Source of the DNA: Pseudomonas helmanticensis
GTDB taxonomy: Bacteria; Pseudomonadota; Gammaproteobacteria; Pseudomonadales; Pseudomonadaceae
Length of the DNA stretch: 64,000 nucleotides
Assembly: GCF_900182985.1 (NCBI RefSeq)
Contig: NZ_FXUY01000001.1
Span: 310,001 to 374,000 of the forward strand
Direction: 5' to 3'
Position 1 is the first letter of the stretch; each line of letters opens with the position of its first letter. The notes beneath the pieces were generated by a model. The model did not search any database. It worked only from the letters and a program-made list of their open reading frames with translations, and had not been told where the DNA came from. A program made the translations under genes and the position numbers. This document shows positions 47,786 to 63,933 of this stretch, piece by piece.

Positions 47786-47838
47786 GGTTTTCCCCACTTT
47801 CGGGGTAAACCGGACAGACCCGGAAAGTGGGGAAAACC
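47786..47838. promoter_or_regulatory. Paired CCCC-N6-GGGG palindromes upstream of the oxidase promoter
   Basis: A 16-bp inverted repeat (GGTTTTCCCCACTTTC / GAAAGTGGGGAAAACC) contains CCCC-N6-GGGG at 47792-47805 and CCCG-N6-GGGG at 47819-47832. It starts about 120 bp before the -24/-12 element at 47907, as enhancer-protein sites do. Confidence 0.55.
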
Positions 47839-47841
47839 GGT

Positions 47842-47854
47842 GGGGAATATCCCC
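47842..47854. promoter_or_regulatory. GGGGA-ATA-TCCCC palindrome
   Basis: A third short C/G-run palindrome lies 50-65 bp before the sigma-54 promoter of the multicopper oxidase gene. Confidence 0.4.
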
Positions 47855-47906
47855 CGGGTTCTCAAGTGGTCGCGGTAACTGATTGAACGCTAATGCAATT
47901 TTTTTG

Positions 47907-47922
47907 TGGCACGCGGATTGCT
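47907..47922 (+). promoter_or_regulatory. Near-consensus sigma-54 promoter of the multicopper oxidase operon
   Basis: TGGCACGCGGATTGCT matches TGGCACG-N4-TTGCW exactly, with GG and GC ten bases apart. It is 55 bp before the ATG at 47978, leaving a leader of about 45 nt with a GAGG ribosome site. Confidence 0.85.
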
Positions 47923-47977
47923 CCGAGGCATTTGTCGAGAAGTGTTCCCAAGAGCACCCACTACGAGGTTACTGATC

Positions 47978-50900
47978 ATGGTTGGCATTCATCACGCTCC
48001 GTCTCTGTTGAACTGGCTGGTGATTCTGGCCTCGATGCTCAGCGTCGAGCTGGCCAGCGCGGCCGTGCGTTGCGAGCGCAACCTGGTAGCCAACGTCGTC
48101 GCCTTCGATCAACCGCTGATGTTCAACCGCCTCGGCGCGCAGAACATCAACGGCATGATGTTCGCCCTGCGCCGCGACGTCGTTGATGACCGCAATATGT
48201 CGCTGGCCTACGGCGGTTCAGCAGTGCCGGGCAAGGTTTCGCTGCGGCCGGACAAGCGGCCACGGCCATTGGTACTGCGGGTCGCCGCCGGGGATTGCCT
48301 GACGATCAATCTGCAGAACCTGCTCGACTATCAGGCCAACCCGAACAAGCACTTCGAGAATGAAGGTGAAGAAGAGGAAGGCGTCGAAAACGCTAACGCT
48401 GGCGAAGACTTCAAAGTCGATGAGCAAGTCGCTGACCGCCACGTTGGTTTTCAGGTCAACGGCCTGCAAGCAGTGAACAGCATCGATGACATTTCCTCGT
48501 TCACCGGACGTAACGCCAACACCTTGGTACCGCCGGGCGCGAGCCGTTCTTACACCCTGTATGCCGAGCGCGAAGGCGCGTTTGCCGTCAGCAGCCGTGG
48601 CGCAACGTTCGGTGGCGAGGGCGCGGCCGGCAACGTCGCCAATGGTTTGTTCGGCCAGGTCGTCGTCCTGCCCAAGGGTGGTCGCAGCTATCGCAACACC
48701 CTCACTGAAGAAGAAATGCGCCTGGCCACCACCGGCCGCGCACCCACCGGCCAACCGATCGTTGATTACCAGGCGCGCTACCCGCAACGCGAACCGTGGT
48801 TGCGTGAGGGCAAGGCCGGTACGCCGATAATCGGCATGGTCGACGGCAACGAAATCATCTCCAGCGAAAGCGATGCGATTGTCATGGGCAGCAACGCCGA
48901 TGGCAGCTTCCCGCCCAGCACCTATCCGCTGGAATCGATCGGCAAACGCAACCCGGCGATCCCTAATCGACTGGAAGCGTTCCGCGATTTCGCCTCGCAA
49001 TTTCAGGACGAAACCGCCGCCACTCAAGCATTCCCGGCCTATTGGGCCGACCCGGTGATGGCCCACGTGCTGGAGCCGACTCGCGACTCGTTCATGATCA
49101 ACTACGGCTCGGGCGGCATGGGCGCCGAAGTGGTGGCCAACCGTCTGGGCGTCGGGCCGATGCACGATTGTCTGTCCTGCGCCTACGAAGAATTCTTCCT
49201 CAGTTCGCACACCGTTGGCGATGTGGCGATGCTGGTCGATGTGCCGGCCAACGCGGGGCTTGAGAACATCGCCCCCGGCCAGATACCGCGCGCCGATCAG
49301 ATCGGGGTGAAAGCGACCATGGCGCTGTATCCGTCGGAGCCGTCGAACGTCAATCACAGCTACATCGGTGACTTCGTCAAATTCCGCAACACCCACAATG
49401 GCCATGAGCAGCACATCTTCCACTTGCACGGCCATCAGTGGCTGTTCAACCCCAACGATGACAACTCCGATTACGTCGACGCCCAGGGCATTGGTCCGGG
49501 TGCCGGTTACACCTATGAAATCGCCAATGGCGGTTCGGGTAACCGCAACCGTGTGGCCGGCGATGCGATCTATCACTGCCATTTCTATCCGCACTTTGCC
49601 CAAGGCATGTGGGCCATGTGGCGGGTGCACGATGTGTTTGAAGAGGGCACCCGGCTCGACGTTTCCCAGCAGGGCGCCGACGGTTACCACAGCGAACCGT
49701 TTGCCCTGCGCAGCGGTAAACCTGCCGCCGGGGCACGCGCCTTGCCGGACGGCGAGATCGTCGCCGGCACACCGATTCCGGCGATTGTGCCGCTGCCGGG
49801 CAAAGCCATGACGCCGATGCCGGGCAAAGTCGTGGTCGTGCCGAAAATCGGTGAAACCCTGATCGCCGGTAATGACGACGATGAGGAAGAAGAGGGCGAT
49901 GACGACGGTGATCACCATGGCGGCAATGCCGGCGGTCAAGCCATCGGTTCGCTGGCGCTGGTCGATCGCAGCGAAGCCAACCGCAATGCCGACGGCAGCC
50001 TGAAAAACCCTGGCTATCCATTCTGGATCGGCGGCATGGAAAGCTCGGTCGGCCAACGTCCGCCAACGCCGCCGCTGGACATGCTCGACGCCGCCACCGC
50101 GCAGTCGCTCAAGGCCAGCGGCAAAGCGCTGTGGGCCAACCTTGATCCGGCGCAATCCGGTGGTTGGAATGGCGGCTTGCAGCGGCACGCACTGGATGGC
50201 GTCGCGGCCGGTGGCGAAGCGCACACCGTGACCACTTCGCTGGACTTCTCCAAGGAAGTCACTCGCGCCAAACCGATTTACCTGCCGGAAGAGGGCACCG
50301 AAGTAGAACAAGCGGCGATGGCTTTCCACGCGAAAAAAGATCACCCAAGCTATGCCTTGCTGCCCGGCAATCAAGTGGTGGCCAAGGCGTTCCGCACCAA
50401 CGGTGCCTTGCCGATGGCCGGTGCGCCGTACTACGAACCGTGCATGGACGACCGGCAAAAACGCTTGACCAGCAGCGCTGGCAGTGGCGAATTCAATAGT
50501 GGTGAACGCATCGACGGTCTGTCCTTTGTTGGCGCCTCGAGCTTCACCGCCGACCGCCCACGGATCTACAAAGCCGCCAACATCCAGTTCGATGCGGTGT
50601 ACAACAAGGTCGGTTATCACTTCCCGCAGGCGCGCATTCTGGCACTGTGGGAAGACGCCTGGCCGGTGATCAGCAAGCAGCGTCCACCAGAGCCGCTGGT
50701 GATGCGCATGAACACTTTCGATTGCGTGCAATACCAGCAAACCAACCTGGTGCCGGCCACCTATGAGATGGACGACTATCAGGTGCGCACGCCGACCGAT
50801 GTGATCGGTCAGCACATCCACTTGCCGAAGTGGGACCTGACCTCGGCGGACGGCTCCTCCAACGGCTGGAACTACGAGGACGGCGTGCTTTCACCCGGCG

Positions 50901-53812
50901 CCGTGCAGGAACGCATTCACGCGATCCGCGAGTTCAACCAATGCGCCGGCACCGATCCGCGTGACGGCACCCAGACCTGCCCGAAAGCCAAGAACCATCC
51001 GTTCTTCGGCCAGTACGGCCGCGCCGACTGGGTCGGTGCGCGCACGGCGATGCAGCGCTGGTTCGTCGATCCGGTGGTCAACGCCAAAGGCGTCGATCGT
51101 GGCCTCGGCACCATCTTCACCCACGACCACTTAGGCCCATCGACGCACCAGCAGATCGGTCTGTATGCCACCGTGTTGGCCGAGCCGGCCGGTTCCACCT
51201 GGTTCCACGCCGAAACCGGCGAGCCGTTGTACAGCGGCGCGCGGCAGGATGGCGGCCCGACCTCGTGGCAAGCGGTGATCAATACCGGCGACCTCGATGG
51301 CGACGGCAAGAACGACAGCTTCCGCGAGTTCTTCCTCGAATACAGTGACTTCCAGCACGCCTATGAAGCCGGCGTCTATGTCGGCGCAGGTCCCAACGGT
51401 GTGCCAAATACACAAGCGTTCCCGGCCACCGCCGACAGCTTCCGCTATGCGATCAATCCGCCAGTGCGCAACAACGCCAGCAATCTGCTTGAAGGCGTGC
51501 TGGAAGTGCAGGGCGGTCAGGTGCCGGGCTGCCCGAGCCGGCCTTGTCCGCAGGCGATTTCGGTGGATGATCCGGGCATGTTCGTCGTCAACTATCGCAA
51601 CGAGCCGCTGGCCCTGCGCGTGTACGACCCGAACAAGGTCGGCCCGGACGGCAAGCGCGGGATGCAGGCCGACGGCCTCGGCGGCGATCTCTCGTTCGCC
51701 ATGCAAAGCCGCACCGACCGGGCGATCCCGGCGATGAACCTGGCGCCGAATCTGCTCACCGCGGCCACCGGCCCAACCGGCGGCACCACGCTGTTCCCGC
51801 CGCACATCAACAAGGGCGGCGCTGAACCTGGCGATCCGTTCACGCCGATGCTGCGTACCTACACCGGCGACAACGTGCGGTTGCGGGTGCACGCCGGCGG
51901 CCATGAAGAGGAGCACAACGTCACCCTGCACGGTGTGAAATGGCTGCAGAGCGGTTCCGGTTTCGGCAACAGCTCCAACTCTGGCTGGCGTGCTTCGCAG
52001 ATGATCGGCATTTCCGAGCAGATGGGCTTTATTGCGCCGGTGTCGATGCTCTCCAGTTCGGCGGCGACCACGGGTGATTATCTGTACTCGATGGACGCTT
52101 CGATTGAAGGTTACTGGAGCGGTATCTGGGGCGTGATGCGCAACTACACCGCCAAACGCAATGACCTGTTCGCCATCCCCAACAACCCGAATCCGGCGGG
52201 CATGCGCAACACTGTGGCGTTCGAGGGCAGTTGCCCACGGATCAGCGCCAACCCCAATGGCATCGGCACCCGGCCGACGGTGCAGCGCAACTATGAAGTG
52301 GTTGCGGCGCTGGCCAACGACATTCTCGGCAATGCGCTGGGCCTGACCATCGGCGACCCCGAAGGGCTCGGTCAGCATGTCGGCGGGCCGTTGAATCCGG
52401 CGGGCGGCACCCTGGTGCTGAACTCGCGCACGGTGAGCATTCCACAAGTCACCGTGACCGATCCGGAGGATGGCGAAACCATCACCATCGGTGGGCAGAG
52501 CGGGCCGCTGCATGATCCGACCGCGATCCTCTATGTGCGTAAATCCGATCTGGATCCGCTCAGCGGCAAGCTCAAACCCGGCATCCCGGTCGAACCGTTG
52601 GTGCTGCGCGCCGCAGCGGGGGATTGCCTCAACATCACCCTGGAAAACCGTCTGCCGAGCGTGATGCCGGACCTGACCCAGACCGCTGTGATGCAAGGCA
52701 TGGTCAAGCGTGATCGCAACAGCGGGCTGGGCTCGACCACCTTCAGCAACAACCTGATGCGGCCGTCCAGCCACGTCGGCCTGCACGCACAACTGCTGGC
52801 GTATGACATCACCAAATCCGACGGCGCCAACGTCGGCGCCAACCCGATCCAGACCGTGCCACCGCGCGTCGGCAACAGCGGCGCGTACCCGACCCGTACC
52901 TATCAATACTACGCCGGGCACCTGGAACGCGAAGGCAAACCGGTGACTCAACTGGGCCGCAGCGTCGACAACATCAACGCCACGGCGGTCGAGTTCGGCG
53001 GTTTGAACATCACTCCGGCGGACGTGATCAAGCAGCCGCAAAAAGGTCTTGGCGGGGCGATGAGCATTCTGCCGATCGGCGCGACCTGGGTCGACGATGC
53101 GCGCAAGGTCAACGCCACGGTCACCGCGCCGGGGCAGACCAGCTATCGCGACTTCGCGATGGTCTGGCACAAGGCGCTGAACACCCGTTGGGCCAATGGC
53201 CGGCCGGTGGAAGGAATTGCCGCTGAAGGCTTCGGCGTGCCGACCGATCCGCAGGACAACTCGAGCATGGCGATCAACTACAAGACCGAGCCGCTGTGGT
53301 ACCGCTTCGGCCTTGCCCCGGATGCACCGTTCGGGCATGCCGATGGCGCGGGTTATGGCGACATGACCAATGCGCACATGGCTTACAGCAATGCGCTGGT
53401 GGGTGGCGACCCGCAGACGCCGGTGCTTTACGCCAAACCGGGGCAGCCGTTGCGTACGCACATTCTGATGCCGAGCGGTGGCAGTCGCGGCACCACGTTC
53501 CAGCTCGACGGGCATGTCTGGTCGGTGAACCCGTTCCAGGCCGAGAAGAGCGATGTCGGTGGTTATCCGATGGGCTCGCCGGGCGTCGGCTCGGTGCGCT
53601 TCGGCTACAACCCGATGTCGATGTACATCGGCGCCCACGAAAGCGTCCTGCCGGCCGCGCACTTCAGCTTCATGATCCCAAGCGCCGGCGGCAGCAATGC
53701 GATCCCGGGGGATTACCTGTTCCGCGACTACGCCGCCTACGGCAACACCTCCGGGTTATGGGGTTTGCTGCGCGTGACCAACGAACCGGAACCGGCACCG
53801 CAGGGGCAATAG
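47978..53812 (+). CDS. Giant exported multicopper oxidase, Mn-oxidase type (MnxG/McoA/MofA-like)
   Basis: The 1944-residue protein starts at ATG 47978 (GAGG upstream) with a signal peptide (WLVILASMLSVELASAA, cut near residue 28). Copper-site motifs lie in several cupredoxin domains: HEQHIFHLHGHQW (about residue 475) and AIYHCHFYPHFAQGMW (about 530), HIHLPKW (about 946), FTHDHLGPSTHQQ (about 1046), HEEEHNVTLHGVKW (about 1308), and GDYLFRDY...SGLWG near the end (about 1910). Two Asp/Glu/His-rich loops are at about 127 and 633. Proteins of this size with repeated HXH motifs oxidise Mn(II) in Pseudomonas and Leptothrix. It heads an operon with copper chaperones and a cytochrome. Confidence 0.85.
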   Translation: MVGIHHAPSLLNWLVILASMLSVELASAAVRCERNLVANVVAFDQPLMFNRLGAQNINGMMFALRRDVVDDRNMSLAYGGSAVPGKVSLRPDKRPRPLVLRVAAGDCLTINLQNLLDYQANPNKHFENEGEEEEGVENANAGEDFKVDEQVADRHVGFQVNGLQAVNSIDDISSFTGRNANTLVPPGASRSYTLYAEREGAFAVSSRGATFGGEGAAGNVANGLFGQVVVLPKGGRSYRNTLTEEEMRLATTGRAPTGQPIVDYQARYPQREPWLREGKAGTPIIGMVDGNEIISSESDAIVMGSNADGSFPPSTYPLESIGKRNPAIPNRLEAFRDFASQFQDETAATQAFPAYWADPVMAHVLEPTRDSFMINYGSGGMGAEVVANRLGVGPMHDCLSCAYEEFFLSSHTVGDVAMLVDVPANAGLENIAPGQIPRADQIGVKATMALYPSEPSNVNHSYIGDFVKFRNTHNGHEQHIFHLHGHQWLFNPNDDNSDYVDAQGIGPGAGYTYEIANGGSGNRNRVAGDAIYHCHFYPHFAQGMWAMWRVHDVFEEGTRLDVSQQGADGYHSEPFALRSGKPAAGARALPDGEIVAGTPIPAIVPLPGKAMTPMPGKVVVVPKIGETLIAGNDDDEEEEGDDDGDHHGGNAGGQAIGSLALVDRSEANRNADGSLKNPGYPFWIGGMESSVGQRPPTPPLDMLDAATAQSLKASGKALWANLDPAQSGGWNGGLQRHALDGVAAGGEAHTVTTSLDFSKEVTRAKPIYLPEEGTEVEQAAMAFHAKKDHPSYALLPGNQVVAKAFRTNGALPMAGAPYYEPCMDDRQKRLTSSAGSGEFNSGERIDGLSFVGASSFTADRPRIYKAANIQFDAVYNKVGYHFPQARILALWEDAWPVISKQRPPEPLVMRMNTFDCVQYQQTNLVPATYEMDDYQVRTPTDVIGQHIHLPKWDLTSADGSSNGWNYEDGVLSPGAVQERIHAIREFNQCAGTDPRDGTQTCPKAKNHPFFGQYGRADWVGARTAMQRWFVDPVVNAKGVDRGLGTIFTHDHLGPSTHQQIGLYATVLAEPAGSTWFHAETGEPLYSGARQDGGPTSWQAVINTGDLDGDGKNDSFREFFLEYSDFQHAYEAGVYVGAGPNGVPNTQAFPATADSFRYAINPPVRNNASNLLEGVLEVQGGQVPGCPSRPCPQAISVDDPGMFVVNYRNEPLALRVYDPNKVGPDGKRGMQADGLGGDLSFAMQSRTDRAIPAMNLAPNLLTAATGPTGGTTLFPPHINKGGAEPGDPFTPMLRTYTGDNVRLRVHAGGHEEEHNVTLHGVKWLQSGSGFGNSSNSGWRASQMIGISEQMGFIAPVSMLSSSAATTGDYLYSMDASIEGYWSGIWGVMRNYTAKRNDLFAIPNNPNPAGMRNTVAFEGSCPRISANPNGIGTRPTVQRNYEVVAALANDILGNALGLTIGDPEGLGQHVGGPLNPAGGTLVLNSRTVSIPQVTVTDPEDGETITIGGQSGPLHDPTAILYVRKSDLDPLSGKLKPGIPVEPLVLRAAAGDCLNITLENRLPSVMPDLTQTAVMQGMVKRDRNSGLGSTTFSNNLMRPSSHVGLHAQLLAYDITKSDGANVGANPIQTVPPRVGNSGAYPTRTYQYYAGHLEREGKPVTQLGRSVDNINATAVEFGGLNITPADVIKQPQKGLGGAMSILPIGATWVDDARKVNATVTAPGQTSYRDFAMVWHKALNTRWANGRPVEGIAAEGFGVPTDPQDNSSMAINYKTEPLWYRFGLAPDAPFGHADGAGYGDMTNAHMAYSNALVGGDPQTPVLYAKPGQPLRTHILMPSGGSRGTTFQLDGHVWSVNPFQAEKSDVGGYPMGSPGVGSVRFGYNPMSMYIGAHESVLPAAHFSFMIPSAGGSNAIPGDYLFRDYAAYGNTSGLWGLLRVTNEPEPAPQGQ

Positions 53813-53866
53813 GCCCAACGGTAATGCCCCGGCGGATGGAGGTGGCGGGATGAATGCAAATCCCGT

Positions 53867-53951
53867 GTAGGAGTGAGCCTGCTCGCGATTGGGACAACTC
53901 GGTTTCGGACGGTGCGGCGGATGACGCCATCGCGAGCAGGCTCACTCCTAC
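53867..53951. repeat. REP-type inverted repeat within the oxidase operon
   Basis: GTAGGAGTGAGCCTGCTCGC and its exact inverse lie in the 172-bp gap between the oxidase and beta-propeller genes, the only sizeable gap in this operon. The structure may reduce downstream expression or stabilise the oxidase mRNA. Confidence 0.85.
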
Positions 53952-53984
53952 AGGGAATGGGTTTGCAAATCAGGGGAGGGTGGT

Positions 53985-55907
53985 ATGAACAGGATCATCA
54001 ACATCATTGGTATTTGCTCACTGGCCATGGCCGGGGCGGTGCTGACGCTGAGTGAGATTGCGCTGGCACAGACCGGCAGCGGGCAGACGCTAAGCCGTGA
54101 TGGCGTTTCGGTGGATTTCAAGCTTCAGCCACTGGCCGCCGACGGCAAACTGCGCGAAGGCGAATTCGCCGATGTGCAGTTTCGCATCAGCGACAGCGCT
54201 TCCGGCCAGCCTCTATCTGGTGTGGCGCCGGGCGCCTGGGTCGATCCGCAAACCCTCGCCGCCGATCAGGCGCAAGGCCGCGACAAAAACTGCAAATCCC
54301 GCGTCGGCGTGTTCCTCAAATCCAACATCGGCGCGCGGCCATTGCTCGACCTCAACAGCTATTTCCTGCTGGTAATGAACCGCGACGCCAGTATTGCAGT
54401 GGTCGATCCATCCGTGTCGGTTGGCGGCATCACCAGCACCCTCGCGCGCATCGAACTCAAGCAACCACCGATGGATTGGGTCACTCCCAAAGACAATAAA
54501 CGCGTCTTCGTTTCCATGCCGACAGCGGGCGAAGTCGCCGTCATTGACAGCGAACAATTCAAAGTCCTCGATTCGATCAGCGCCGGCAGCCAACCGTTTC
54601 GCGTCGCCCTGCAACCCGACGAACGCCTGCTCTGGGTCGGCAACAATGCGAGCAAAGCTGAAGACTCCGGCGTCACGGTGATCGACAGCCAAAGCCTCAA
54701 ACCCCTCAAACATCTGCAGACCGGACGCGGTCACCACGAAATCACCTTCAGCAAGGACAGCCGCTTCGCCTTCGTCAGCAATCGCGACGACGGTACCGTC
54801 AGCGTGGTCGACATCGCCAGCCTGAATATCATTCAGCAGATCAAAACCGGCGCGCATCCGCTGTCAGTCGCCTATTCGCCGCTGTCCGGCGCGGTCTACG
54901 TGGCCGATGGCAAGGACGGCACCGTCACCGTGATCGACGCCAGCACCCACGCCATCCGCCGGGTGATCAAGCTGCAACAAGGCCTCGGCCCGATGGGCTT
55001 CAGCGCCGACGGCCGTTTCGGCATGGTACTCAACACCGTGGAAAACCGCGCGAGCGTCATCGATGCCGCGACCAACAGCGCGATCCATGATCTGGACGTC
55101 AGCGCCGAACCCTACCAGGTGGTGTTCACCCAGGCCTACGCCTACATCCGCGGACTCGCTTCGCCGAAAGTCACCATGATCAACCTGTCCTCGCTGGGCG
55201 AAGGCCGCCAGCCGATCAGCCAAAGTTTCGAAGCCGGCCCGCAAGCACCGCGCCTGGCCGGGGATCTGCCGCTGGCCTCAAGCCTCGCGGTTTCACGCGA
55301 CGACAACGCGGTCTTCGTGGTCAACCCGGTCGACAACACCACCTACTTCTACGCCGAAGGCATGAACGCGCCGATGTCCGGTTACCCCAACCGTGGCCAG
55401 ATCGCCCGCGCCGCCATGGTCATCGACCGCAGCCTGCGCGAAGTCTCGCCGGGCCTCTACAGCGCCAGAGTGAAACTACCGGCGGCGGGGCGTTTCGACG
55501 TGGCGTTCCTGCTCAATCAACCGAACATCATTCACTGCTTCACCGCGCAGATCGATAGCGACGGCAAACCGCAAAAACACCTCGGCCAGCCGAAAGTCGA
55601 GTTCCTCCTCGACAAGACTGCCGTGGCGCTCAACGACCCCTACGTCGTGCGTTTTCGCATCGTCCAGGGCAAAGACAAAACCCAGCGTAGCGGCGTCAAA
55701 GACGTCCAACTGCGCTACTACCTCGCGCCCACCTCGCATCCGCGTGAAGTGGCGGCGCTGGAAGTCGCCGACGGGGTTTACGAAGCACCCATCACCCTCG
55801 ACCGCAGCGGCGCCTGGTACCTGCACGTGCGCGCGGCATCGCTGGGCGCCGCTTTCGATGACAAGACCTTTGCCAGTGTCCGGGTAACCCCCGAGCCGAT
55901 CCGTTGA
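53985..55907 (+). CDS. Exported YVTN-type beta-propeller protein
   Basis: The 640-residue protein has a signal peptide (IINIIGICSLAMAGAVLTLS..., cut near ALA, residue 28). Residues 120-440 hold repeated YVTN/NHL-like blades (RVFVSMPTAGEVAVIDSEQF, FAFVSNRDDGTVSVVDIASL, AVYVADGKDGTVTVIDASTH). The N- and C-terminal parts are beta-rich modules. GGGGAGGG precedes ATG. Such propellers often act as periplasmic scaffolds or bind metal or cofactors; here it probably assists the oxidase. The last 4 bases overlap an in-frame TTG of the next gene. Confidence 0.83.
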   Translation: MNRIINIIGICSLAMAGAVLTLSEIALAQTGSGQTLSRDGVSVDFKLQPLAADGKLREGEFADVQFRISDSASGQPLSGVAPGAWVDPQTLAADQAQGRDKNCKSRVGVFLKSNIGARPLLDLNSYFLLVMNRDASIAVVDPSVSVGGITSTLARIELKQPPMDWVTPKDNKRVFVSMPTAGEVAVIDSEQFKVLDSISAGSQPFRVALQPDERLLWVGNNASKAEDSGVTVIDSQSLKPLKHLQTGRGHHEITFSKDSRFAFVSNRDDGTVSVVDIASLNIIQQIKTGAHPLSVAYSPLSGAVYVADGKDGTVTVIDASTHAIRRVIKLQQGLGPMGFSADGRFGMVLNTVENRASVIDAATNSAIHDLDVSAEPYQVVFTQAYAYIRGLASPKVTMINLSSLGEGRQPISQSFEAGPQAPRLAGDLPLASSLAVSRDDNAVFVVNPVDNTTYFYAEGMNAPMSGYPNRGQIARAAMVIDRSLREVSPGLYSARVKLPAAGRFDVAFLLNQPNIIHCFTAQIDSDGKPQKHLGQPKVEFLLDKTAVALNDPYVVRFRIVQGKDKTQRSGVKDVQLRYYLAPTSHPREVAALEVADGVYEAPITLDRSGAWYLHVRAASLGAAFDDKTFASVRVTPEPIR

Positions 55908-55921
55908 AGAGGAATGTCGAC

Positions 55922-56572
55922 ATGAACCGATTTGCATCCAGTGGCCTGCTGACCCTATGCCTGTTGAGCCTCGGCCTCCAACAAACCCAGGCCCATTCGG
56001 CAGACGAACACGCCGGGCACAAGGCGCCGGCGAGCAACACCCAAGAACACACCCAGGTGAAGTTCGCCAACGTGCCGCTGCTCGACCAGACCGGCAAAAC
56101 CGTGCGCCTCGAACAAGACTTGGTGCAGGGCAAAATCGTCGTCATGAGTTTTATCTACACCAGTTGCACCACGGTGTGCCCGGTGGTCTCGTCGATCATG
56201 GGCAAAGTGCAGAAACAACTCGGCGCACGAGTCGGCAGCGAAGTGCAACTGGTGTCGATCAGCATCGACCCGCAACGCGACGACCCGAAACGCCTGCAGG
56301 ATTACGCGCGCACTTTCCAGCGCGGGCCGGGTTGGAGCTGGCTGACCGGTTCGCCGCAATCGATCAACGAAACCCTCAAAGGCCTCGGCAGTTTCAGCGG
56401 TGACTTCAAGAATCATCAGCCGTTGATCCTCGTCGGCGACGGCAACAACCGCCACTGGATGCGCTACTACGGCTTCACCGATCCGGCGCTGCTGGCCAAG
56501 GAAGTCGAGAAACTCAGCGGCCTGCGCACCCACGCCAAACACACCGCCATCGCCATGGAGCAACAGCCATGA
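55922..56572 (+). CDS. SCO1/SenC-family copper chaperone (first copy)
   Basis: The 216-residue protein starts at ATG 55922 behind GAGG. After a signal peptide (about residues 1-24) comes a His-rich segment (AHSADEHAGHK). The thioredoxin-like domain has the copper-binding CxxxC in TSCTTVCP (Cys82, Cys86) and a His near 169 (KNHQPLILVGDG). SCO proteins deliver copper to oxidase centres in the periplasm. The immediate neighbour is a second SCO gene overlapping by ATGA, so both are made together with the multicopper oxidase. Confidence 0.9.
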   Translation: MNRFASSGLLTLCLLSLGLQQTQAHSADEHAGHKAPASNTQEHTQVKFANVPLLDQTGKTVRLEQDLVQGKIVVMSFIYTSCTTVCPVVSSIMGKVQKQLGARVGSEVQLVSISIDPQRDDPKRLQDYARTFQRGPGWSWLTGSPQSINETLKGLGSFSGDFKNHQPLILVGDGNNRHWMRYYGFTDPALLAKEVEKLSGLRTHAKHTAIAMEQQP

Positions 56573-57189
56573 GACTGCTCGACTGGATCTCCCTGAGCGT
56601 GTGTTTCTGGATCTTCAGCACCGTCGCGTTCGCCCACGAAGGCCATGCCCCTGAGGCACCTGCGACGGTTGCCGCCGCGCCGGCCCAAGGTACCCACGAC
56701 GCAAAAACCTGGTTCACCGACACGCCGTTGCAGGATCAGAACGGCGAGACGCTGCGCTTCTACAGCGATGCGCTGCAAAACCGCATCGTCCTGCTCAACG
56801 TGATTTTCACCCGTTGCAACGATGCCTGCCCACTGATCACGCAAAAGCTCAAAGAGGTGCGCGAGCTGTTGGGCGACAAGGCGCAGGACATCACCTTCAT
56901 TTCCCTTACCAGTGACCCGCTGCGCGATACGCCGGCGGTGCTCAAGGCTTACACCTTGAAGCAGGGTTCCGATGACCCTCATTGGCTTTTTCTTACCGGC
57001 GACAAGGCGCAGATGGACCTGGTACTGAGTCGCATCGGCCAGATCGTGCCGACCCCCGAGCAACACTCGACGCAGTTGATCGTCGGCGACGTCGCCAACA
57101 AACGCTGGAGCAAAATCCGCCCCGATGCCCCGGCCGCCGCCATTGCCCAGCGCTTGCAGTTGCTGACAATGCCCGTGGCTGGCCGCTGA
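56569..57189 (+). CDS. SCO1/SenC-family copper chaperone (second copy)
   Basis: The 206-residue protein has an N-terminal export helix (SLSVCFWIFSTVAFA), a His-rich tip (HEGHAPEA) and a thioredoxin-like domain with TRCNDACP (Cys83, Cys87) and the later His in TPEQHSTQLIVGD (about residue 166). It is only moderately similar to the first copy, so the pair may divide copper delivery and thiol reduction. Its ATG overlaps the stop of the first copy, giving tight coupling. The next gene begins 10 bp later. Confidence 0.9.
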   Translation: MRLLDWISLSVCFWIFSTVAFAHEGHAPEAPATVAAAPAQGTHDAKTWFTDTPLQDQNGETLRFYSDALQNRIVLLNVIFTRCNDACPLITQKLKEVRELLGDKAQDITFISLTSDPLRDTPAVLKAYTLKQGSDDPHWLFLTGDKAQMDLVLSRIGQIVPTPEQHSTQLIVGDVANKRWSKIRPDAPAAAIAQRLQLLTMPVAGR

Positions 57190-57198
57190 GCCCGTGCC

Positions 57199-58752
57199 AT
57201 GAACCGCTGCCGCGTTTTACTCGCCCTGATCCTGCTCGCTGGCCTCAGCCTTGGCGCGGGTGCTGCGCCGCTGACCCCGGAAGAGGCGGCGGGCAAGCGC
57301 CTGTACCGTCAGGGCTTGTCGGCCAGTGGCGAGGCGATCATGGCGCGGGTCGGTGCGGCAGATGTGTTGCTGCCGGCGACCAGCCTGCCGTGCGCCAATT
57401 GCCACGGCGCCGATGGCCTCGGGCGACCCGAAGGCGGGGTGCGTCCGCCGCCGTTGAACTGGGCGCGGCTGACCAGCACCTACGGCCAGCAACAGGTCAA
57501 CGGCCGCAGTTATCCGGCGTACACCGAGAGCAGTCTGGCGACCGTCATCGAGCAAGGACGCGACCCCGGCCACAATCGCCTCGACCCAAGCATGCCGCGC
57601 TTTCTGCTGTCGATGAAGGATCAGCGCAACCTCACCGCGTACCTCAAACGCCTGGCCGATGAACGCGACCCGGGCCTTGAGGCGCAAACCTTGCACCTCG
57701 GCACCTTGCTGCCCAGTCAAGGCCCGTTGGCGGAGGAGGGCATGACCATCGCGGCAGTTCTTAACGGCAGCGTCGCGCGGATCAATCAGGCCGGTGGTAT
57801 TCATGGGCGGCAACTGCGCTTGACCGTGATCGATCCCGGCCCGGATCGCGCCAGCGCCGAGCAAGCCCTGCAGCAGTTGATTGAGCAAGAACAAGTGTTC
57901 GCCCTGATCGCGCCGCTGGCGCCGGCCCTCGACAGTGAATTGGCAAGCCGTCTGGAACAGTCCGGCGTGCCGCTGATTGGCGCTTTGTCGTTGCTCGGCT
58001 CGATGCAGGCCAGCCCGCAGATTTTCGAACCGTTGCCGGGCTTGCGCGAGCAGTTGATCGCGCTGGCCGATTACGCCACAGCAAGCCTGCGCGTGCTGCA
58101 GGGGCCGACATTGATCGCGTATCCCGATGACCCGGCACAAACGCTGGCCGCGCAAAACCTCGGCCAGTACTTGCAGGATCACGGCTGGCAGAAAGTTCAT
58201 CTGCAAGCCTACGACCCGGCGGCGGAGGCACTGCCGTTGGGCTCGCGCTCGGTGTTTTATCTGGGCAATGGCGGTGGTTTTGGTCGATTGGCGACACGCC
58301 TGCAAAGCGCCGGGCAAGTGCCGTATCTGTTCGCCGCTTCGAGCCAGGTTGCTGGTGAGTTGCTGCAAGTGCCGGAGGGATTCTCGCGGCGGGTGTTTCT
58401 CGCCTATCCGTTTGTGCCCAGCGACTGGACCCAGGCCGGGCGCATGGCCCTGACGTTGCTGCGTGAACACCAAGGTCTCGGCGCCCAGCACGCGGTGCTG
58501 CAAGTCGGCGCCTATGCCTCGATGTTGTTGCTCAGCGAAGGCATGAAGCAGGCCGGCCGCGACGCCAGCCGCGAAAAACTGGTGGCGGCGCTGGAAGGCC
58601 TGCACGACTTCGACACCGGCCTGACCCCGCGCCTGAGTTTCGGCCCCGGCCGACGCCTGGGCTTGAGCGGCGCCCATGTGGTCACCATGGATTTGCCCGA
58701 TCAGCGTTTCTATCTGGTCGCGCCCTATAAACCGATTGTTGCCAGCCCCTGA
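57199..58752 (+). CDS. Cytochrome c domain fused to a periplasmic ligand-binding domain
   Basis: The 517-residue protein has a signal peptide (residues 1-22), then a class I cytochrome c domain: haem motif CANCH at residues 65-69 and a likely axial Met in DPSMPRFLL (about 131). From about residue 165 to the end is a branched-chain-amino-acid-type periplasmic binding fold (LGTLLPSQGPLAEEGMTIAA, VARINQAGGIHGRQL, FYLGNGGGFGRLATRL). The fusion suggests electron transfer joined to ligand sensing or docking. In the Leptothrix mof operon a haem protein also accompanies the oxidase. Confidence 0.83.
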   Translation: MNRCRVLLALILLAGLSLGAGAAPLTPEEAAGKRLYRQGLSASGEAIMARVGAADVLLPATSLPCANCHGADGLGRPEGGVRPPPLNWARLTSTYGQQQVNGRSYPAYTESSLATVIEQGRDPGHNRLDPSMPRFLLSMKDQRNLTAYLKRLADERDPGLEAQTLHLGTLLPSQGPLAEEGMTIAAVLNGSVARINQAGGIHGRQLRLTVIDPGPDRASAEQALQQLIEQEQVFALIAPLAPALDSELASRLEQSGVPLIGALSLLGSMQASPQIFEPLPGLREQLIALADYATASLRVLQGPTLIAYPDDPAQTLAAQNLGQYLQDHGWQKVHLQAYDPAAEALPLGSRSVFYLGNGGGFGRLATRLQSAGQVPYLFAASSQVAGELLQVPEGFSRRVFLAYPFVPSDWTQAGRMALTLLREHQGLGAQHAVLQVGAYASMLLLSEGMKQAGRDASREKLVAALEGLHDFDTGLTPRLSFGPGRRLGLSGAHVVTMDLPDQRFYLVAPYKPIVASP

Positions 58753-58767
58753 ACGGAGGGCCCGATC

Positions 58768-59529
58768 ATGAAGCTCACAAGTCTGATAGTGCTGCTGACC
58801 TGCTGGTTTCCGCCGGTCTGGGCCAATAACGAGCCGGCGGTGGCGCGGGTCAATGGCGAGGAAATCTCTGGCTATCGTTTCGAGCGCTTTTTCGCCGAAT
58901 ACCTCGAAGATCAGGGCCGCGCGGTGACGAGCATTCGCAGTCCCAAGGCCTACAAGGAACTGCGTCAGGCGGCGTTGCAAATGCTGATCGACAAAGAATT
59001 GCTGTGGCAGGAATCGCAGAAGCGTGGCCGGCACATCGACGAGCAAGCGCTGCGTCAGCAAATCGAGCAAACCCGCATGGCCATCGGCGGCGCGGATAAA
59101 TTCGTCCGTCGCCTGCAGGATGCCGGTTTCGATGAGGCGTCCTTCACCGAGTACACCCGCCGCGAGCTGGCGGCGCAGCAGATGTTCGCCGAGCTGATCC
59201 GCGCTAATACCTTGCAACCCCGCCACCTGTTGATCCGCGTGCCCGCGCAAGCCGATGCAGCCACAGTGGCCGCAGCGCGTCTACGCTTGATGCAGATGCG
59301 CGCCTCGATCATCAACGGGGCGACGTTTGCCAGCCAACCGCTGCGTTCACCGTTCGGCTGGCATGTGATTTATTTGCAGAACCACTTGGAGGCCGCCGAT
59401 GTCCCAGCTGTGCAGGGGCTGGATACAGTCAGGGCACAGCTTGCCCGACAGCAACAGACCCAGGCTCGTCGTCAGGTGCTCGCGCAATTACGGGTGCAGA
59501 ATAGGATCGAACGAATTGACGACGACTGA
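58768..59529 (+). CDS. PpiC/SurA-type periplasmic peptidyl-prolyl isomerase with shortened domain
   Basis: The 253-residue protein has a signal peptide (residues about 1-19) and a SurA-like helical N-terminal part (VARVNGEEISGYRFERFF, LIDKELLWQESQKRG). The parvulin domain starts at RHLLIRVPAQAD (about 151) and ends at LRSPFGWHVIYLQNHLEA (about 193-210). The middle of the domain (the segment with the GGDLG motif) is missing: GATFA is joined directly to SQPLRSPFG. It is therefore probably a foldase-like chaperone without full isomerase activity. It ends the oxidase operon; a PPIase is also next to the Leptothrix mofA oxidase. Confidence 0.83.
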   Translation: MKLTSLIVLLTCWFPPVWANNEPAVARVNGEEISGYRFERFFAEYLEDQGRAVTSIRSPKAYKELRQAALQMLIDKELLWQESQKRGRHIDEQALRQQIEQTRMAIGGADKFVRRLQDAGFDEASFTEYTRRELAAQQMFAELIRANTLQPRHLLIRVPAQADAATVAAARLRLMQMRASIINGATFASQPLRSPFGWHVIYLQNHLEAADVPAVQGLDTVRAQLARQQQTQARRQVLAQLRVQNRIERIDDD

Positions 59530-59532
59530 AGG

Positions 59533-59595
59533 TTCCCCCCCAATAGTGGGGAATGGCTTCGATGCCCATTCAGGTGCTTCCCCGTTTCTGGGGAA
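59533..59595. promoter_or_regulatory. Two CCCC-N6-GGGG palindromes upstream of the response regulator
   Basis: TTCCCC...GGGGAA occurs at 59533-59553 (core CCCC-N6-GGGG at 59538-59551) and TTCCCC-GTTTCT-GGGGAA at 59578-59595. They are 75-135 bp before the sigma-54 promoter at 59669 and match the pair near 47786-47838. Confidence 0.55.
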
Positions 59596-59668
59596 CGGGG
59601 TACCGGGACGAGCGGGCATTGTCATTAATTTCAAGGACATGAAGAGATAAAATTACCGGCACTCAGCC

Positions 59669-59684
59669 TGGCATGAAGTGTGCG
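59669..59684 (+). promoter_or_regulatory. Sigma-54-type promoter before the response regulator gene
   Basis: TGGCATGAAGTGTGCG has GG (59670-59671) and GC (59682-59683) ten bases apart, 65 bp before the TTG start at 59749. The -24 half is good (TGGCA), the -12 half is TGC. Confidence 0.65.
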
Positions 59685-59748: not shown

Positions 59749-60279
59749 TTGGTTAACAAAGTACTGGTTGTCGAAGACGAACAGCTGCTTGCACAGAACC
59801 TTCAGGATTATCTGTCGGCGCAGGGGCTGGACGTCCGGATTGCACATGACGGAGCGACGGCTATCGGTTTGGCCGAAACCTTTGCCCCCGACGTGCTGGT
59901 GTTCGATTACCGCTTGCCCGATATGGAAGGTTTTGAGGTGCTCGACGCGGTCCGCCAGAACAGGACGTGCCATTTTGTGCTGATAACGGGTCACCCGACC
60001 GCTGAAGTCTGTGAGCGGGCGCGGCAACTGGGGGTCAGCCACATCCTGTTCAAACCGTTTCCCTTGGCGGAACTGGCGCGGGCGGTCTGCGACCTTCTTG
60101 GCATCAAGCGCGAAGCGAAACCCGGTGCGAGCCCTTCCGAGGGCTTTGTCGAACGACGCCAGAGCAGGACCGAGAGCTTCCCGTTGCAGTTGTACGATGG
60201 CAGTTGGGTGTTGGCGGATCGGCGACGACAGTTGCACGCCATGGCACCGGACGACGATCAAATGCTCACCGGGGAGTAA
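59749..60279 (+). CDS. Receiver-only response regulator
   Basis: The 176-residue protein starts at TTG 59749 behind a strong AAGGAG seven bases upstream. The receiver domain (residues 4-118) has the acidic pair VVEDEQ, phospho-acceptor Asp53 (VFDYRLPDMEG), Thr in VLITGHPT and Lys near 103 (LFKPFPLAELA). The last about 55 residues (PSEGFVERRQSR...) hold no known DNA-binding or enzymatic domain. It lies at the head of the gspE-pilM-pilN-pilO gene row under a sigma-54 promoter. It may tune the secretion ATPase or act in a phosphorelay with an enhancer-binding protein encoded elsewhere. Confidence 0.85.
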   Translation: MVNKVLVVEDEQLLAQNLQDYLSAQGLDVRIAHDGATAIGLAETFAPDVLVFDYRLPDMEGFEVLDAVRQNRTCHFVLITGHPTAEVCERARQLGVSHILFKPFPLAELARAVCDLLGIKREAKPGASPSEGFVERRQSRTESFPLQLYDGSWVLADRRRQLHAMAPDDDQMLTGE

Positions 60280-60360: not shown

Positions 60361-62067
60361 ATGGAACGTCTGTCCGTTGTCGTCGAACCACTGCCGGCCG
60401 AAAGCGCCCCCGCGCGTTTTTCCAGTGAACAGCTTGCCCAGGCCCGGGCGCGGGCCGCCACTTCCGGCGAACGCGTCCTCGATGCTCTCGGCGTGTTGTG
60501 CGAACTGGCAGCGATGCCGTTCATTCAAGCCCTCGGCGCCACCCTGCATTACCCGGTGCTCGACACCGACAGCCTGTTCGCCGCGACGCCGGTATTCGAC
60601 CGGGTCACCCTCGCACAATGCCTCAAACGTGAATTCATCCTGCTGCGCCACAACGACGAAGTCATCGGCGTGTTTGCCGACCCCTTCGACCCGGCGCGCC
60701 TGGCCTGGATCGACGATTGCCTGCACGGCGCGCCGCTGTATCTGGTGCACGCCGATGACCTCAAGGCCTATCTGGCCCGCCACGAAGAAAGCTTCCACGC
60801 CGTCGAATCGCTGAACGCCCAAGGCGACACTCACCACGAAATCGATACCCTGCAAAGCCTGTCGCTGACCAGCATCAGCGAAGACGCCAGCAGCGTGGTG
60901 AAACTGGTCAACTCGACCCTCTACGACGCGCTGAAAATGCACGCCAGCGACATCCATCTCGGCACCACCGGCCACGGTCTGGTGATCAAGTACCGCATCG
61001 ACGGCGTGCTCAACAACATCAGCAAAGTCCAGGGCAACGAGTTCGCCGAGCAGGTGATCTCGCGGGTCAAGGTCATGGCCGAACTGGACATCGGCGAGAA
61101 ACGCGTACCGCAGGACGGTCGTTTCAAGATCGGTATCAGTGGCCGGCAGATCGACTTTCGCGTGTCGATCATGCCGAGCATCTTTGGCGAGGACGCCGTG
61201 TTGCGGGTGCTGGATAAACAGGACCTCGCCGACAAGGTCTGTGGTGTGCAATTGCAGGCGCTGGGCTTTGAAGACGAAACCCTGCGCCAGTTGCGCCGCC
61301 TCGCCGCCGAACCCTACGGCATGGTGCTGGTCACCGGCCCGACCGGCAGCGGCAAGACCACCACGCTGTACGCGATGATCACCGAGATCAACCACGGCGT
61401 GGACAAGATCATCACCATCGAAGACCCGGTCGAGTATCAATTGCCGGGGGTGCTGCAAATCCCGGTCAACGAGAAAAAAGGCCTGACCTTCGCCCGGGGT
61501 TTGCGCTCGATCCTGCGTCACGACCCGGACAAGATCATGGTCGGCGAAATCCGTGACCCGGACACTGCACAGATCGCCGTGCAATCGGCGCTCACCGGTC
61601 ACCTGGTGTTCACCACCATCCACGCCAACAACGTCTTCGACGTGATTGGCCGCTTCACCCAAATGGAAATCGACCCCTACAGCCTGGTCTCGGCGCTCAA
61701 CGCGATTCTCGCCCAGCGCCTGATCCGCCTGGTGTGCGCCAGTTGCAGCGCGCCGGTCAGCCCGAGCGATGAAGAGCTGCGCGCCTCGGGCCTCGATCCA
61801 CAGAAAGTCGATCACTACCACTTCGTCCACGGCAAAGGCTGCGGGCACTGCCGGGGCAGTGGCTATCGCGGGCGCACGGCGATTGCCGAACTGCTGCACC
61901 TCGACGACGAACTGCGCCAGATGATCGTCGAGCGCCAACCCATCACAAAAATCAAAGCCCTGGCCTGCGCCCGTGGTTTGCGCCTGCTGCGCGAATCGGC
62001 GCTGGAGCTGGTGGAACAAGGTCGCACCACGCTAGAGGAGATCAATCGTGTCACATTTATCTCGTGA
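60361..62067 (+). CDS. gspE: Type II secretion ATPase GspE
   Basis: The 568-residue cytoplasmic ATPase has an N1E/MshEN-type domain (about residues 20-150), then the catalytic part: Asp-box SDIHLGTTGHGLVIKYRIDG near 200, Walker A TGPTGSGKTTTLYA (about 323-336), EDPVEYQLPG near 355, Walker B DKIMVGEIRD near 390, His-box LVFTTIHANN near 416, and a zinc site of four Cys (CASCSAP near 459; GCGHCRGSGYRGR near 493). It powers pseudopilus assembly and would partner GspF encoded at 45332. ATG follows a GAG-type ribosome site. Confidence 0.92.
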   Translation: MERLSVVVEPLPAESAPARFSSEQLAQARARAATSGERVLDALGVLCELAAMPFIQALGATLHYPVLDTDSLFAATPVFDRVTLAQCLKREFILLRHNDEVIGVFADPFDPARLAWIDDCLHGAPLYLVHADDLKAYLARHEESFHAVESLNAQGDTHHEIDTLQSLSLTSISEDASSVVKLVNSTLYDALKMHASDIHLGTTGHGLVIKYRIDGVLNNISKVQGNEFAEQVISRVKVMAELDIGEKRVPQDGRFKIGISGRQIDFRVSIMPSIFGEDAVLRVLDKQDLADKVCGVQLQALGFEDETLRQLRRLAAEPYGMVLVTGPTGSGKTTTLYAMITEINHGVDKIITIEDPVEYQLPGVLQIPVNEKKGLTFARGLRSILRHDPDKIMVGEIRDPDTAQIAVQSALTGHLVFTTIHANNVFDVIGRFTQMEIDPYSLVSALNAILAQRLIRLVCASCSAPVSPSDEELRASGLDPQKVDHYHFVHGKGCGHCRGSGYRGRTAIAELLHLDDELRQMIVERQPITKIKALACARGLRLLRESALELVEQGRTTLEEINRVTFIS

Positions 62068-62851
62068 GCGTTTTGTCGCCGTGCTCGGCGCCATCGGTGT
62101 TGGCCTCGGCCAGCGGCGCGGCAGCGACACCTTGTGGCTGGGCAGCGTCGGGTACATCGACGAAGGCTTCCAGAGCTACGCGGTGGCGCTGGACACCCTC
62201 GACCGCCTGCTCGGTGAACACGCCCGCGCCGGTGGCGAATTGAGCGTGGTCATCTCCGGGCACTTCAGCCGTTTTTGCCTGGTGCCATGGAGCGCGCAGA
62301 TCAGCAGTCCTGAAGAGCTGCGCGGCTTTGCCCAATTGTGTTTTGAAGACTTGTTTGGCGCGCCGACCCAGCCGTGGAGTCTGGTGCTGTCCGCTGAGCC
62401 GGCCGGTTACGACCGCATCGCCAGCGCCTTGCCGCAAGATTTGCTTGATCGCCTGCGCACGCTGGTCAGCGCTCGCGGTTTGCGCCTGCGCTCGGTGCAG
62501 CCGTACCTGATGGCGGCATTCAACCGCTTCGATAAAAGCTTCGATGCCGGCGATTTCCTCTTCGTCGTCGCCGAGCCGCAACGCAGTGTGTTGTTGCTGG
62601 CGAGGGAAGGGCGCTGGGCCGGCGTGCGCTCGGCGGGCGGTAGCGACAGCGATGCCGCGTTAAATGCCCTGATCGGTCGTGAACGTCAGCTGCAAGCCTC
62701 GACCAGCGAACGTGCCTTCAACGTTTATCTGCATGCGCCGGCGCGCCTCGATGCGCATCCGGACGTGGCGGGTGTGCAACTGCGCACCCTTGAAGATGCC
62801 TCGATGACCGTGCGTGACGGCTTGTACGTCATGTCCCGGGCGGTGGCCTGA
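62048..62851 (+). CDS. PilM/GspL-like cytoplasmic-domain protein
   Basis: The 267-residue protein starts at GTG 62048 (AGAGGAG upstream), overlapping the gspE end by 20 bp. The actin-like fold of GspL cytoplasmic domains and PilM is suggested by LWLGSVGYIDEGFQSYAVAL near residue 30, LVPWSAQISSPEELRGFAQL near 78 and the FDAGDFLFVVAEPQRSVLLL strand near 167. There is no transmembrane helix, so it is PilM-like rather than full GspL; the membrane part may be supplied by the next (PilN-like) gene. It should link the ATPase to the inner-membrane platform. Confidence 0.72.
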   Translation: MSHLSRERFVAVLGAIGVGLGQRRGSDTLWLGSVGYIDEGFQSYAVALDTLDRLLGEHARAGGELSVVISGHFSRFCLVPWSAQISSPEELRGFAQLCFEDLFGAPTQPWSLVLSAEPAGYDRIASALPQDLLDRLRTLVSARGLRLRSVQPYLMAAFNRFDKSFDAGDFLFVVAEPQRSVLLLAREGRWAGVRSAGGSDSDAALNALIGRERQLQASTSERAFNVYLHAPARLDAHPDVAGVQLRTLEDASMTVRDGLYVMSRAVA

Positions 62852-62852
62852 G

Positions 62853-63398
62853 ATGCGCGCGCTCAACCTGGATTTTCAGCCACGGCCACGTTCCGGCCCG
62901 TTGGGTTGGAGTTTGCTCGGCGGCGGCGTGCTGCTGGCGCTGCTGTGCTTCGGCGTGCAACAGCACCTCGACGCGCACACCGAACAGCAACAGGGCCACT
63001 TGCAAACCACCCAGCGTCAGCTCACCGGCGACAGCGGTGCCAAGTCCACCCTGAGCCCGGCAGAAACCCGCGAGCAAGCAGCAAACCTCGCCGAGATGCG
63101 CAAGGTCTCGCAGCAACTGCGCCGGCCGTGGGAACGCCTGTTCGCCATGCTCGAAGCGATGCCGCGCGATGACGTCGCGCTGCTGAGCCTGACCCCGGAC
63201 GCGCGCAAAGGCCAAGTGCGGATCAGCGCTGAAGCGCGCGATCTGCAAGCGATGCTCGATTTTCACAAACGTCTGGAAGCCAGCGACGAGCTGTCCGACG
63301 TGTCGCTGCTCAGCCACGAAATCGTCGTCAAATCGCCGGAGCAACCGGTGCAATTCAACCTGTCGGCGACCTGGGAGATGGGCGATGCGAATCCCTAG
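62853..63398 (+). CDS. PilN-like secretion assembly protein
   Basis: The 181-residue protein starts at ATG 62853 right after the upstream stop. It has a short cytoplasmic N-terminal part (MRALNLDFQPRPRSG), one transmembrane helix (WSLLGGGVLLALLCFGV, about residues 19-35), a coiled-coil stretch, and a periplasmic ferredoxin-like domain with DDVALLSLTPDARKGQVRIS and SDVSLLSHEI. The PilN/GspL C-terminal type of topology fits. It overlaps the PilO-like gene by 14 bp. It would form the inner-membrane alignment complex with its neighbours. Confidence 0.75.
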   Translation: MRALNLDFQPRPRSGPLGWSLLGGGVLLALLCFGVQQHLDAHTEQQQGHLQTTQRQLTGDSGAKSTLSPAETREQAANLAEMRKVSQQLRRPWERLFAMLEAMPRDDVALLSLTPDARKGQVRISAEARDLQAMLDFHKRLEASDELSDVSLLSHEIVVKSPEQPVQFNLSATWEMGDANP

Positions 63399-63933
63399 AC
63401 TGATCGTCCACGAATACTTGCAAGGCCTCGGCATTCCGGGCCTGGCCGGGCTGGCACTGCTGCTGATCGCCGTGGCTTGGGCGCTTGGCGGTTTGCTGCC
63501 GGGCTGGCAATCGTTGCAGCACCTCAGCCAGCAAACTCAGGAAGCTACCGAATATCTGGCCAAGGTTGAAGACGGCAGCATTGCGCCGCCGGTGGTGCCG
63601 CAGCGTCAGCTGGACGACTTCCGCAACAAACTGCCGGCGCAGCCGCAAGCCACGGTCGCCATCGACCGCATCTACGCCCTCGCAGCCCAAGAACACATCA
63701 CTTTGGCACGCGGCGAATACGCCCTCGGTGTCGACCCGAAAACCCATCTGGCGCGCTATCAGATCCTCCTTCCAGTGCGCGGCAGCTATCCGCAACTGCG
63801 GCGTTTCGTACACGCCTTGCTCGGCCAGTTGCCGGCGGTGGTGGTGGAAGACCTCGAGTTGCAACGCAAGAAGATTGGCGACACCGACCTCAATGGCCGG
63901 ATCCGTTTGACCCTGTACCTGTCGAGGTCGTGA
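63385..63933 (+). CDS. PilO/GspM-like secretion assembly protein
   Basis: The 182-residue protein has one N-terminal membrane helix (LAGLALLLIAVAWALGGLLP, about residues 20-40), a coiled-coil region (SLQHLSQQTQEATEYLAKVE) and a ferredoxin-like periplasmic domain (IYALAAQEHITLARGEYAL, RYQILLPVRGSYPQLRRFVH, VVVEDLELQRKKI). These are features of the PilO/GspM family, which pairs with PilN/GspL. It overlaps the next gene by TGATG and continues the secretion operon. Confidence 0.75.
   Translation: MRIPRLIVHEYLQGLGIPGLAGLALLLIAVAWALGGLLPGWQSLQHLSQQTQEATEYLAKVEDGSIAPPVVPQRQLDDFRNKLPAQPQATVAIDRIYALAAQEHITLARGEYALGVDPKTHLARYQILLPVRGSYPQLRRFVHALLGQLPAVVVEDLELQRKKIGDTDLNGRIRLTLYLSRS

Follow-up and report, generated by a model that had tools for sequence, protein, structure and literature searches.

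At sigma-54 promoters of the NtrC/NifA type, dyad enhancers lie about 80-150 bp upstream with face-of-helix spacing and an intervening bending site. For the manganese-oxidising pseudomonads, MnxR is reported to be required for Mn oxidation in Pseudomonas putida GB-1, an rpoN::Tn5 insertion abolishes Mn oxidation in MS-1, and the order mnxS1-mcoA-SCO1-mnxS2-mnxR is given for MS-1 and DSV-1 (PMC11409713). A similar mnxS2/mnxR arrangement is reported for OF001 (PMC8218464). The promoters PmnxG and PmcoA are described as Mn-induced with predicted sigma-54 and integration host factor (IHF) sites, and the regulation and purpose of Mn biomineralisation are called unknown there (PMC11930936). A type II-secretion-like system has been tied to Mn oxidation in P. 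putida GB-1 (de Vrind 2003, as cited in PMC3056050). Neither a described MnxR site nor a link between MnxR and type II secretion was found in the literature searched, the original MnxR report lying outside that search. Here we analysed a stretch of 64,000 nucleotides (the window, G000:C1:310001-374000) in the 6.53 Mb genome of Pseudomonas helmanticensis, in which CCCC-N6-GGGG palindromes precede the sigma-54 promoters of the Mn oxidase gene mnxG and of a response-regulator gene that leads a row of secretion genes. Judged from the DNA sequence, these palindromes are very probably upstream activator (enhancer) sites for MnxR, whose regulon would comprise both oxidases and the secretion operon.

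As far as the published excerpts describe it, the MnxS1/MnxS2/MnxR system of P. putida GB-1, MS-1 and DSV-1 has the same oxidases, two-component genes and sigma-54 promoters as the genome of the window, which also shows the MS-1/DSV-1 order mnxS1-mcoA-SCO1-mnxS2-mnxR. In those excerpts sigma-54 and IHF sites are reported and no activator site was seen. The promoter type itself is well known; proposed here, and undescribed in the literature searched, are the predicted activator site, its fixed register and two further target promoters, those of the secretion operon and of a MauG-like gene. NtrC/NifA promoters are alike in layout, whereas the elements described here have TTCCCC arms with a six-base centre, and the candidate activator has a GAFTDA loop. 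The GB-1 system of de Vrind 2003 is comparable by description only: both combine type II-secretion-like genes with Mn oxidation, and the account cited above shows no link to MnxR.

The sequence-only reading of this DNA had placed four palindromes in pairs 75-135 bp upstream of two -24/-12 promoters. All four were found at these places, and the range is correct. Before mnxG, the distal palindrome TTCCCC-ACTTTC-GGGGTA (47790..47807; core CCCCACTTTCGGGG at 47792-47805) starts at -117, counted from the first base of the 18-mer to the T of the -24 element, and the proximal one, GACCCG-GAAAGT-GGGGAA (47817..47834), starts at -90; its core CCCGGAAAGTGGGG at 47819-47832 has one imperfect arm. Before the response-regulator gene, CCCCCC-AATAGT-GGGGAA (59536..59553; core CCCCAATAGTGGGG at 59538-59551) starts at -133 and TTCCCC-GTTTCT-GGGGAA (59578..59595; core at 59580-59593) at -91. 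The promoters, TGGCACGCGGATTGCT of mnxG (47907..47922, plus strand) and TGGCATGAAGTGTGCG of the response-regulator operon (59669..59684, plus strand), are both conserved GG-N10-GC elements and scored 22 and 19, respectively, on a scale with a maximum of 22. Both thus show the geometry proposed for binding sites of a sigma-54 enhancer-binding protein, in which dyads precede a -24/-12 promoter by about 80-200 bp.

Such palindromes might arise by chance in a GC-rich genome, and their number in the window would allow this: three were counted where 1.35 were expected, and at least three turned up in 11 of 100 shuffles. The number alone is unremarkable; the position stands out. The whole genome holds 43 copies of CCCC-N6-GGGG. 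Searched in both directions over 200 bp, the 40 others had one promoter-like site scoring 20, at a distance of 38 bp, and three scoring 19, at 24, 89 and about 195 bp. The site 89 bp away belongs to the MauG-like gene. A site matrix was also applied to the 200-bp upstream regions; in 2000 shuffles the score of mnxG or of the response regulator was never reached, the latter having been included in the training of the matrix.

Conservation in the orthologous gaps had been set beforehand as the test of the palindromes. We took the best 80 of 216 mnxG relatives with flanks, all carrying mnxG, and extracted 81 gaps upstream of mnxG and 72 upstream of the response regulator, with the window included in both; 71 of the 80 relatives gave the latter gap. 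The site matrix was trained on the response-regulator gaps, with the mnxG, mcoA, MauG-like and split-operon promoters outside the training set. Because of this training, the scores of the response-regulator promoters are not independent. The refined site reads TTCCCC-R-N4-Y-GGGGAA, the first centre base being A in 73% and G in 27% of 81 distinct sites plus their reverse complements. Matches scoring at least 10 numbered 204 in the 48 kb of gaps versus 34 in the other 1.77 Mb.

The sites were kept, most strictly before the response regulator. All 72 promoters had a site and 71 had two, spaced 41-45 bp apart in 70 of these 71; counted without any matrix, two exact CCCC-N6-GGGG palindromes were present in 71/72. 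The proximal site started at -90 to -92 in 55 promoters, at -101/-102 in seven, at -112 in seven and elsewhere in three, so that the outward steps correspond to about one and two DNA turns. At a period of 10.5 the mean vector length of the site phase was 0.93 (72 promoters, no p-value, shared ancestry uncorrected; the promoter positions of L031 and L071 were set by hand). In a conservation profile of 42 promoters only the distal site is informative, because the promoters had been chosen for an exact site at -89. Nine response-regulator promoters were also read in a set of 149 genomes of the genus, and all had a site. Eight other strict sigma-54 promoters in the window's genome, used as controls, gave a best site score of at most 0.5. 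A chance origin is refuted by the shuffles and control promoters, by the conservation in fixed register over 72 and 81 promoters and by the enrichment of exact sites in mnxR genomes given below, and we leave it practically no probability.

Before mnxG, a site was found in 61 of the 81 promoters, namely in 42/52 of the fluorescens type and in 19/29 of the putida type and others. The positions were mostly -114 to -117 and/or -87 to -91: fluorescens-type promoters had a site at -114 to -117 in 39/52, and the putida-type promoters with a site had its start at -88 to -91 in 18/19. The pairs at both promoters are real, that of mnxG being less conserved than that of the response regulator. The earlier description of the mnxG upstream region also lacked a third element with everted half-sites, GGGGAATATCCCCC (47842..47855), which stands between the palindromes and the promoter. 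The form GGGG-N4..6-CCCC occurs at -64 to -68 in 71/81 mnxG promoters, compared with 0.12% in base shuffles, and in none of the 72 response-regulator gaps. A perfect IHF consensus was present in 12/72 response-regulator and 3/81 mnxG promoters; with at most one mismatch, 33/72 and 48/81 matched (shuffles 4.4% and 7.8%).

The mnxG pair also raised the question of RNA hairpins, that is, terminators of slt or surA or elements like the repetitive extragenic palindromic (REP) sequences. The two palindromes double as arms of a 25-nt inverted repeat that is 92% complementary and lies just past the slt stop codon. No T-run follows this repeat. When 20 mnxG upstream sequences were compared by eye, the repeat was not kept in the more distant ones, where single sites remain, and on this ground the repeat was rejected as a terminator or REP element. 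The mnxG site persists even when no slt was found upstream of it, its position is fixed relative to the downstream promoter, and the genome holds few such sites. The hairpin explanation is largely refuted, and we regard it as very improbable.

Two further promoters in the window's genome showed the same design, and the site start at -90/-91 is common to the mnxG, response-regulator, mcoA and MauG-like promoters. The mcoA locus (L148) encodes a sensor kinase, the multicopper oxidase McoA, SCO1, another sensor kinase and, last, a response regulator of the sigma-54 type. Its mcoA promoter has a site at -91 that scored 9.1, a score reached by 7 of 2000 shuffles. Across relatives, 31 mcoA loci were considered, of which four were dropped for a weak sigma-54 element or a short upstream region and one had no match; in 23 of the remaining 26 promoters a site stood out from shuffles at p<0.05, mostly at about -91, -103 and -114 (p-values uncorrected, genomes related). 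As a side observation, the genome of L032 (G011) carries five mcoA-like genes, each at least 71% identical to the query.

The fourth promoter of this design (G000:C1:4971599-4971708; L140 1000-1109) precedes the gene of a MauG/MbnH-like dihaem protein of 700 amino acids (L231:5806-7908). Its site at -91 scored 16.8, which none of 2000 shuffles reached. For gene searches in named relatives, 30 of the 80 genomes were chosen, and the MauG-like gene was found in six of these (E<=1e-60). With the window's genome included, four of the seven MauG-like promoters had the site and the sigma-54 element, at -91, -92, -92 and -102. The window's genome may hold further targets with degenerate sites.

The sequence-only reading had named an MnxR-type regulator as the plausible binding protein. 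The gene of such a protein lies next to mcoA at a distance of about 100 kb (L148:16993-18423); the product has a receiver domain (PF00072), an AAA+ sigma-54 interaction domain (PF00158) and a Fis-type helix-turn-helix (HTH_8, PF02954). We take it to be MnxR because the gene order matches that of MS-1 and DSV-1 (PMC11409713); the two sensor kinases and mcoA/SCO1 adjoin it in the published order. The response regulator of the window was considered as the DNA-binding activator as well and is ruled out: it has a receiver domain only, and its gene is therefore a target and not the activator.

The mnxR gene was then followed through the 149 genomes, a set that is not independent of the 80 relatives because the two overlap (G102 and G022 share the mnxR place). 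A match to mnxR (E<=1e-200) was present in 48/149 genomes and mnxG in 47/149; mnxR occurred in 47/47 mnxG genomes and in 1/102 others, counts that are uncorrected for shared ancestry. Among the 30 chosen mnxG genomes, all had mnxR (E<=1e-150). The response-regulator gene (E<=1e-50) was found in 46/48 mnxR genomes and 0/101 others; a diverged copy is present in G057 and G072, the two genomes missed at this threshold. The exact full site was present in 28/48 mnxR-positive versus 5/101 mnxR-negative genomes, and a reversed control pattern in 4/48 versus 11/101. The mnxR genomes hold 37 exact sites; by hand count, 35 of them were no more than about 13 kb from mnxG or, where the contig differed, stood at the corresponding promoters. 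Away from mnxG, the site on G032:C10 is accompanied at 92 bp by a promoter-like element with a score of 18, and the one in G076 has no sigma-54-like site of at least 18 within 150 bp downstream; the same negative result was obtained for G108, G165 and G168, the three examined of the five mnxR-negative genomes with the site. The genomic copies are few and mainly tied to Mn-oxidation and secretion promoters of mnxR-positive genomes, as the enhancer reading had predicted.

Co-occurrence also bears on whether a different sigma-54 activator, or another transcription factor travelling with the Mn-oxidation genes, uses these sites. The window's genome has 21 strong Sigma54_activat matches, and co-occurrence was compared for MnxR only. 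A palindrome before mnxS1 (L148 9562-9579) stands without a sigma-54 promoter, which might suit a regulator specific to mnxS1; it scored at least 12 in 7/8 fluorescens-type genomes (the window's included; L211-L217) and below 8 in 11 others, and may be a feedback site. Against another activator speak the reported requirement for MnxR in GB-1, the place of its gene beside the target mcoA and the distribution of mnxR, which is found in every mnxG genome and almost nowhere else in the set. In addition, the recognition helix and the whole helix-turn-helix of MnxR are nearly invariant in 31 sequences, like the arms of the site. We consider a different activator improbable and MnxR the better candidate.

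Rearranged loci showed what happens to the sites when the genes move apart. In five loci (L054, L058, L069, L079 and L071) the gap between mnxG and the next gene is widened, and a site and a sigma-54 promoter, 90-92 bp apart, precede this next gene, which is the beta-propeller gene by match in four and by position in L058. These split loci were found via their sites, and loci with a widened gap and no site stand outside this count. Of the 34 matrix matches outside the gaps, one each in L054, L058, L069 and L079 precedes a promoter of the same design; in L071 three do, two of them belonging to its response-regulator promoter. The single contig of G132 that carries both genes has 187 kb between mnxG and the response regulator, whose promoter has sites at -146/-102. 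In G164 and G055 a response-regulator promoter with the same sites is on a different contig from mnxG. Because the separation in these two may reflect contig ends, G132 alone is counted as unlinked.

In G051 (L246, G051:C126; L247, G051:C110) no mnxG match was found, no propeller match above 120 bits was found on the contig, and mcoA was not seen at its usual place between mnxS1 and SCO1. This genome keeps mnxS1, mnxS2 and mnxR as well as both palindromic promoters. An mnxG-type promoter with a site 117 bp upstream stands directly before SCO1, while sites at -135/-91 accompany the promoter of the response regulator. Because the regulatory genes and the in-register promoters are retained in this way, MnxR might mainly serve as master regulator for a secretion programme, consisting of the type II-like and curli-assembly genes and the SCO1 copper chaperones, with the oxidases as clients. 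We hold this to be possible and rather unlikely.

Several observations weigh against MnxR enhancer sites as a full account. The phase of the mnxG sites is weak (0.33 at 10.5 bp), 20 of the 81 mnxG promoters, including those of all five split loci, have no site above threshold, and in the 12 fluorescens-type mnxG promoters with both sites these are 27-28 bp apart, which is not a whole number of turns. Among the nine response-regulator promoters read in the larger set, the site lies at -81 in G057, and the promoter of G090 has a single one at -132. The mcoA sites are degenerate, 9.1 versus 20-23 in the window's genome, and three of the 26 mcoA promoters were not significant. Two of the seven MauG-like promoters lack both elements and one has the site without a sigma-54 element; the mnxS1 palindrome, too, has no such promoter. 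The window's own two promoters gave no IHF match with at most one mismatch; this includes the stretch at 59627..59644 (plus strand), at the IHF-site position of putida-type relatives, which is weak in the window. The uncorrected ancestry of the co-occurrence counts and MnxR being the sole activator so compared belong here as well. Finally, the MnxR loop is GAFTDA and not exact GAFTGA in 31/31 sequences, and of the 15 activators in the window's genome with a readable loop only MnxR has GAFTDA. This variant is listed among those considered to retain activity (PMC4641369), and its sigma-54 contact is doubted for VfmH (PMC10714721).

The mnxG gene (47978..53812, plus strand) encodes the manganese-oxidising multicopper oxidase, matching the NCBIfam equivalog NF041487 with 3919 bits against a cut-off of 3100. 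It starts with the ATG at 47978; the GTG start at 47906 in the list of open reading frames (ORFs) falls at the promoter. By domain matches, the rest of the operon (53985..59529, plus strand) encodes a beta-propeller protein, two SCO1/SenC proteins, a periplasmic binding protein with cytochrome c and a SurA-like protein, the same list of five genes after mnxG as in GB-1, MS-1 and DSV-1 (PMC11409713 Table 4). The receiver-only response regulator (59749..60279, plus strand; 176 amino acids, PF00072 only) is encoded about 12 kb further along and is the first gene of the target operon. Behind it follow genes for a GspE-like ATPase, an unassigned ORF, a PilN-like and a GspM/PilO-like protein (60361..63933, plus strand; domain matches), and the row runs past the window end. 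In the adjoining 14 kb (L230, G000:C1:374001-388000) it continues with a secretin, N-methyl pseudopilins, CsgE, CsgF and CsgG. Judged by gene order, the secretion genes probably form one operon. The type II secretion parts matched in it, alongside CsgE/F/G, are the GspE-like, PilN-like and GspM/PilO-like proteins, the secretin and the pseudopilins; GspF was not among the ORFs scanned, the scan covering part of the ORFs. An Nramp-type metal transporter is encoded after the secretion genes (9021-10358 in L230).

The sites, the promoters, their conservation in fixed register and the co-occurrence with mnxR are observed here; binding by MnxR, bending by IHF and activation of the secretion operon are inferred. 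A MnxR dimer would bind TTCCCC-R-N4-Y-GGGGAA through its Fis-type helix-turn-helix. Before the secretion operon, a pair of dimers spaced by 41-45 bp, roughly four DNA turns, would nucleate the AAA+ hexamer of MnxR, and two closer sites may do so before mnxG. The intervening DNA would bend, aided by IHF in some promoters, at least in those with a consensus site, and MnxR would contact the RNA polymerase-sigma-54 complex at the -24/-12 element via the looped DNA. Phosphorylation of MnxR by MnxS1/MnxS2 would then lead to promoter opening. In this way one signal could switch on mnxG, mcoA, the type II-secretion-like operon and, in some strains, the MauG-like dihaem enzyme.

A defined site with a fixed register would allow direct tests of the MnxR targets, of the co-ordering of secretion and oxidases and of the content of the regulon in oxidase-free strains. 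The site pattern may also be used to search for new Mn-oxidation genes, such as that of the MauG-like enzyme.

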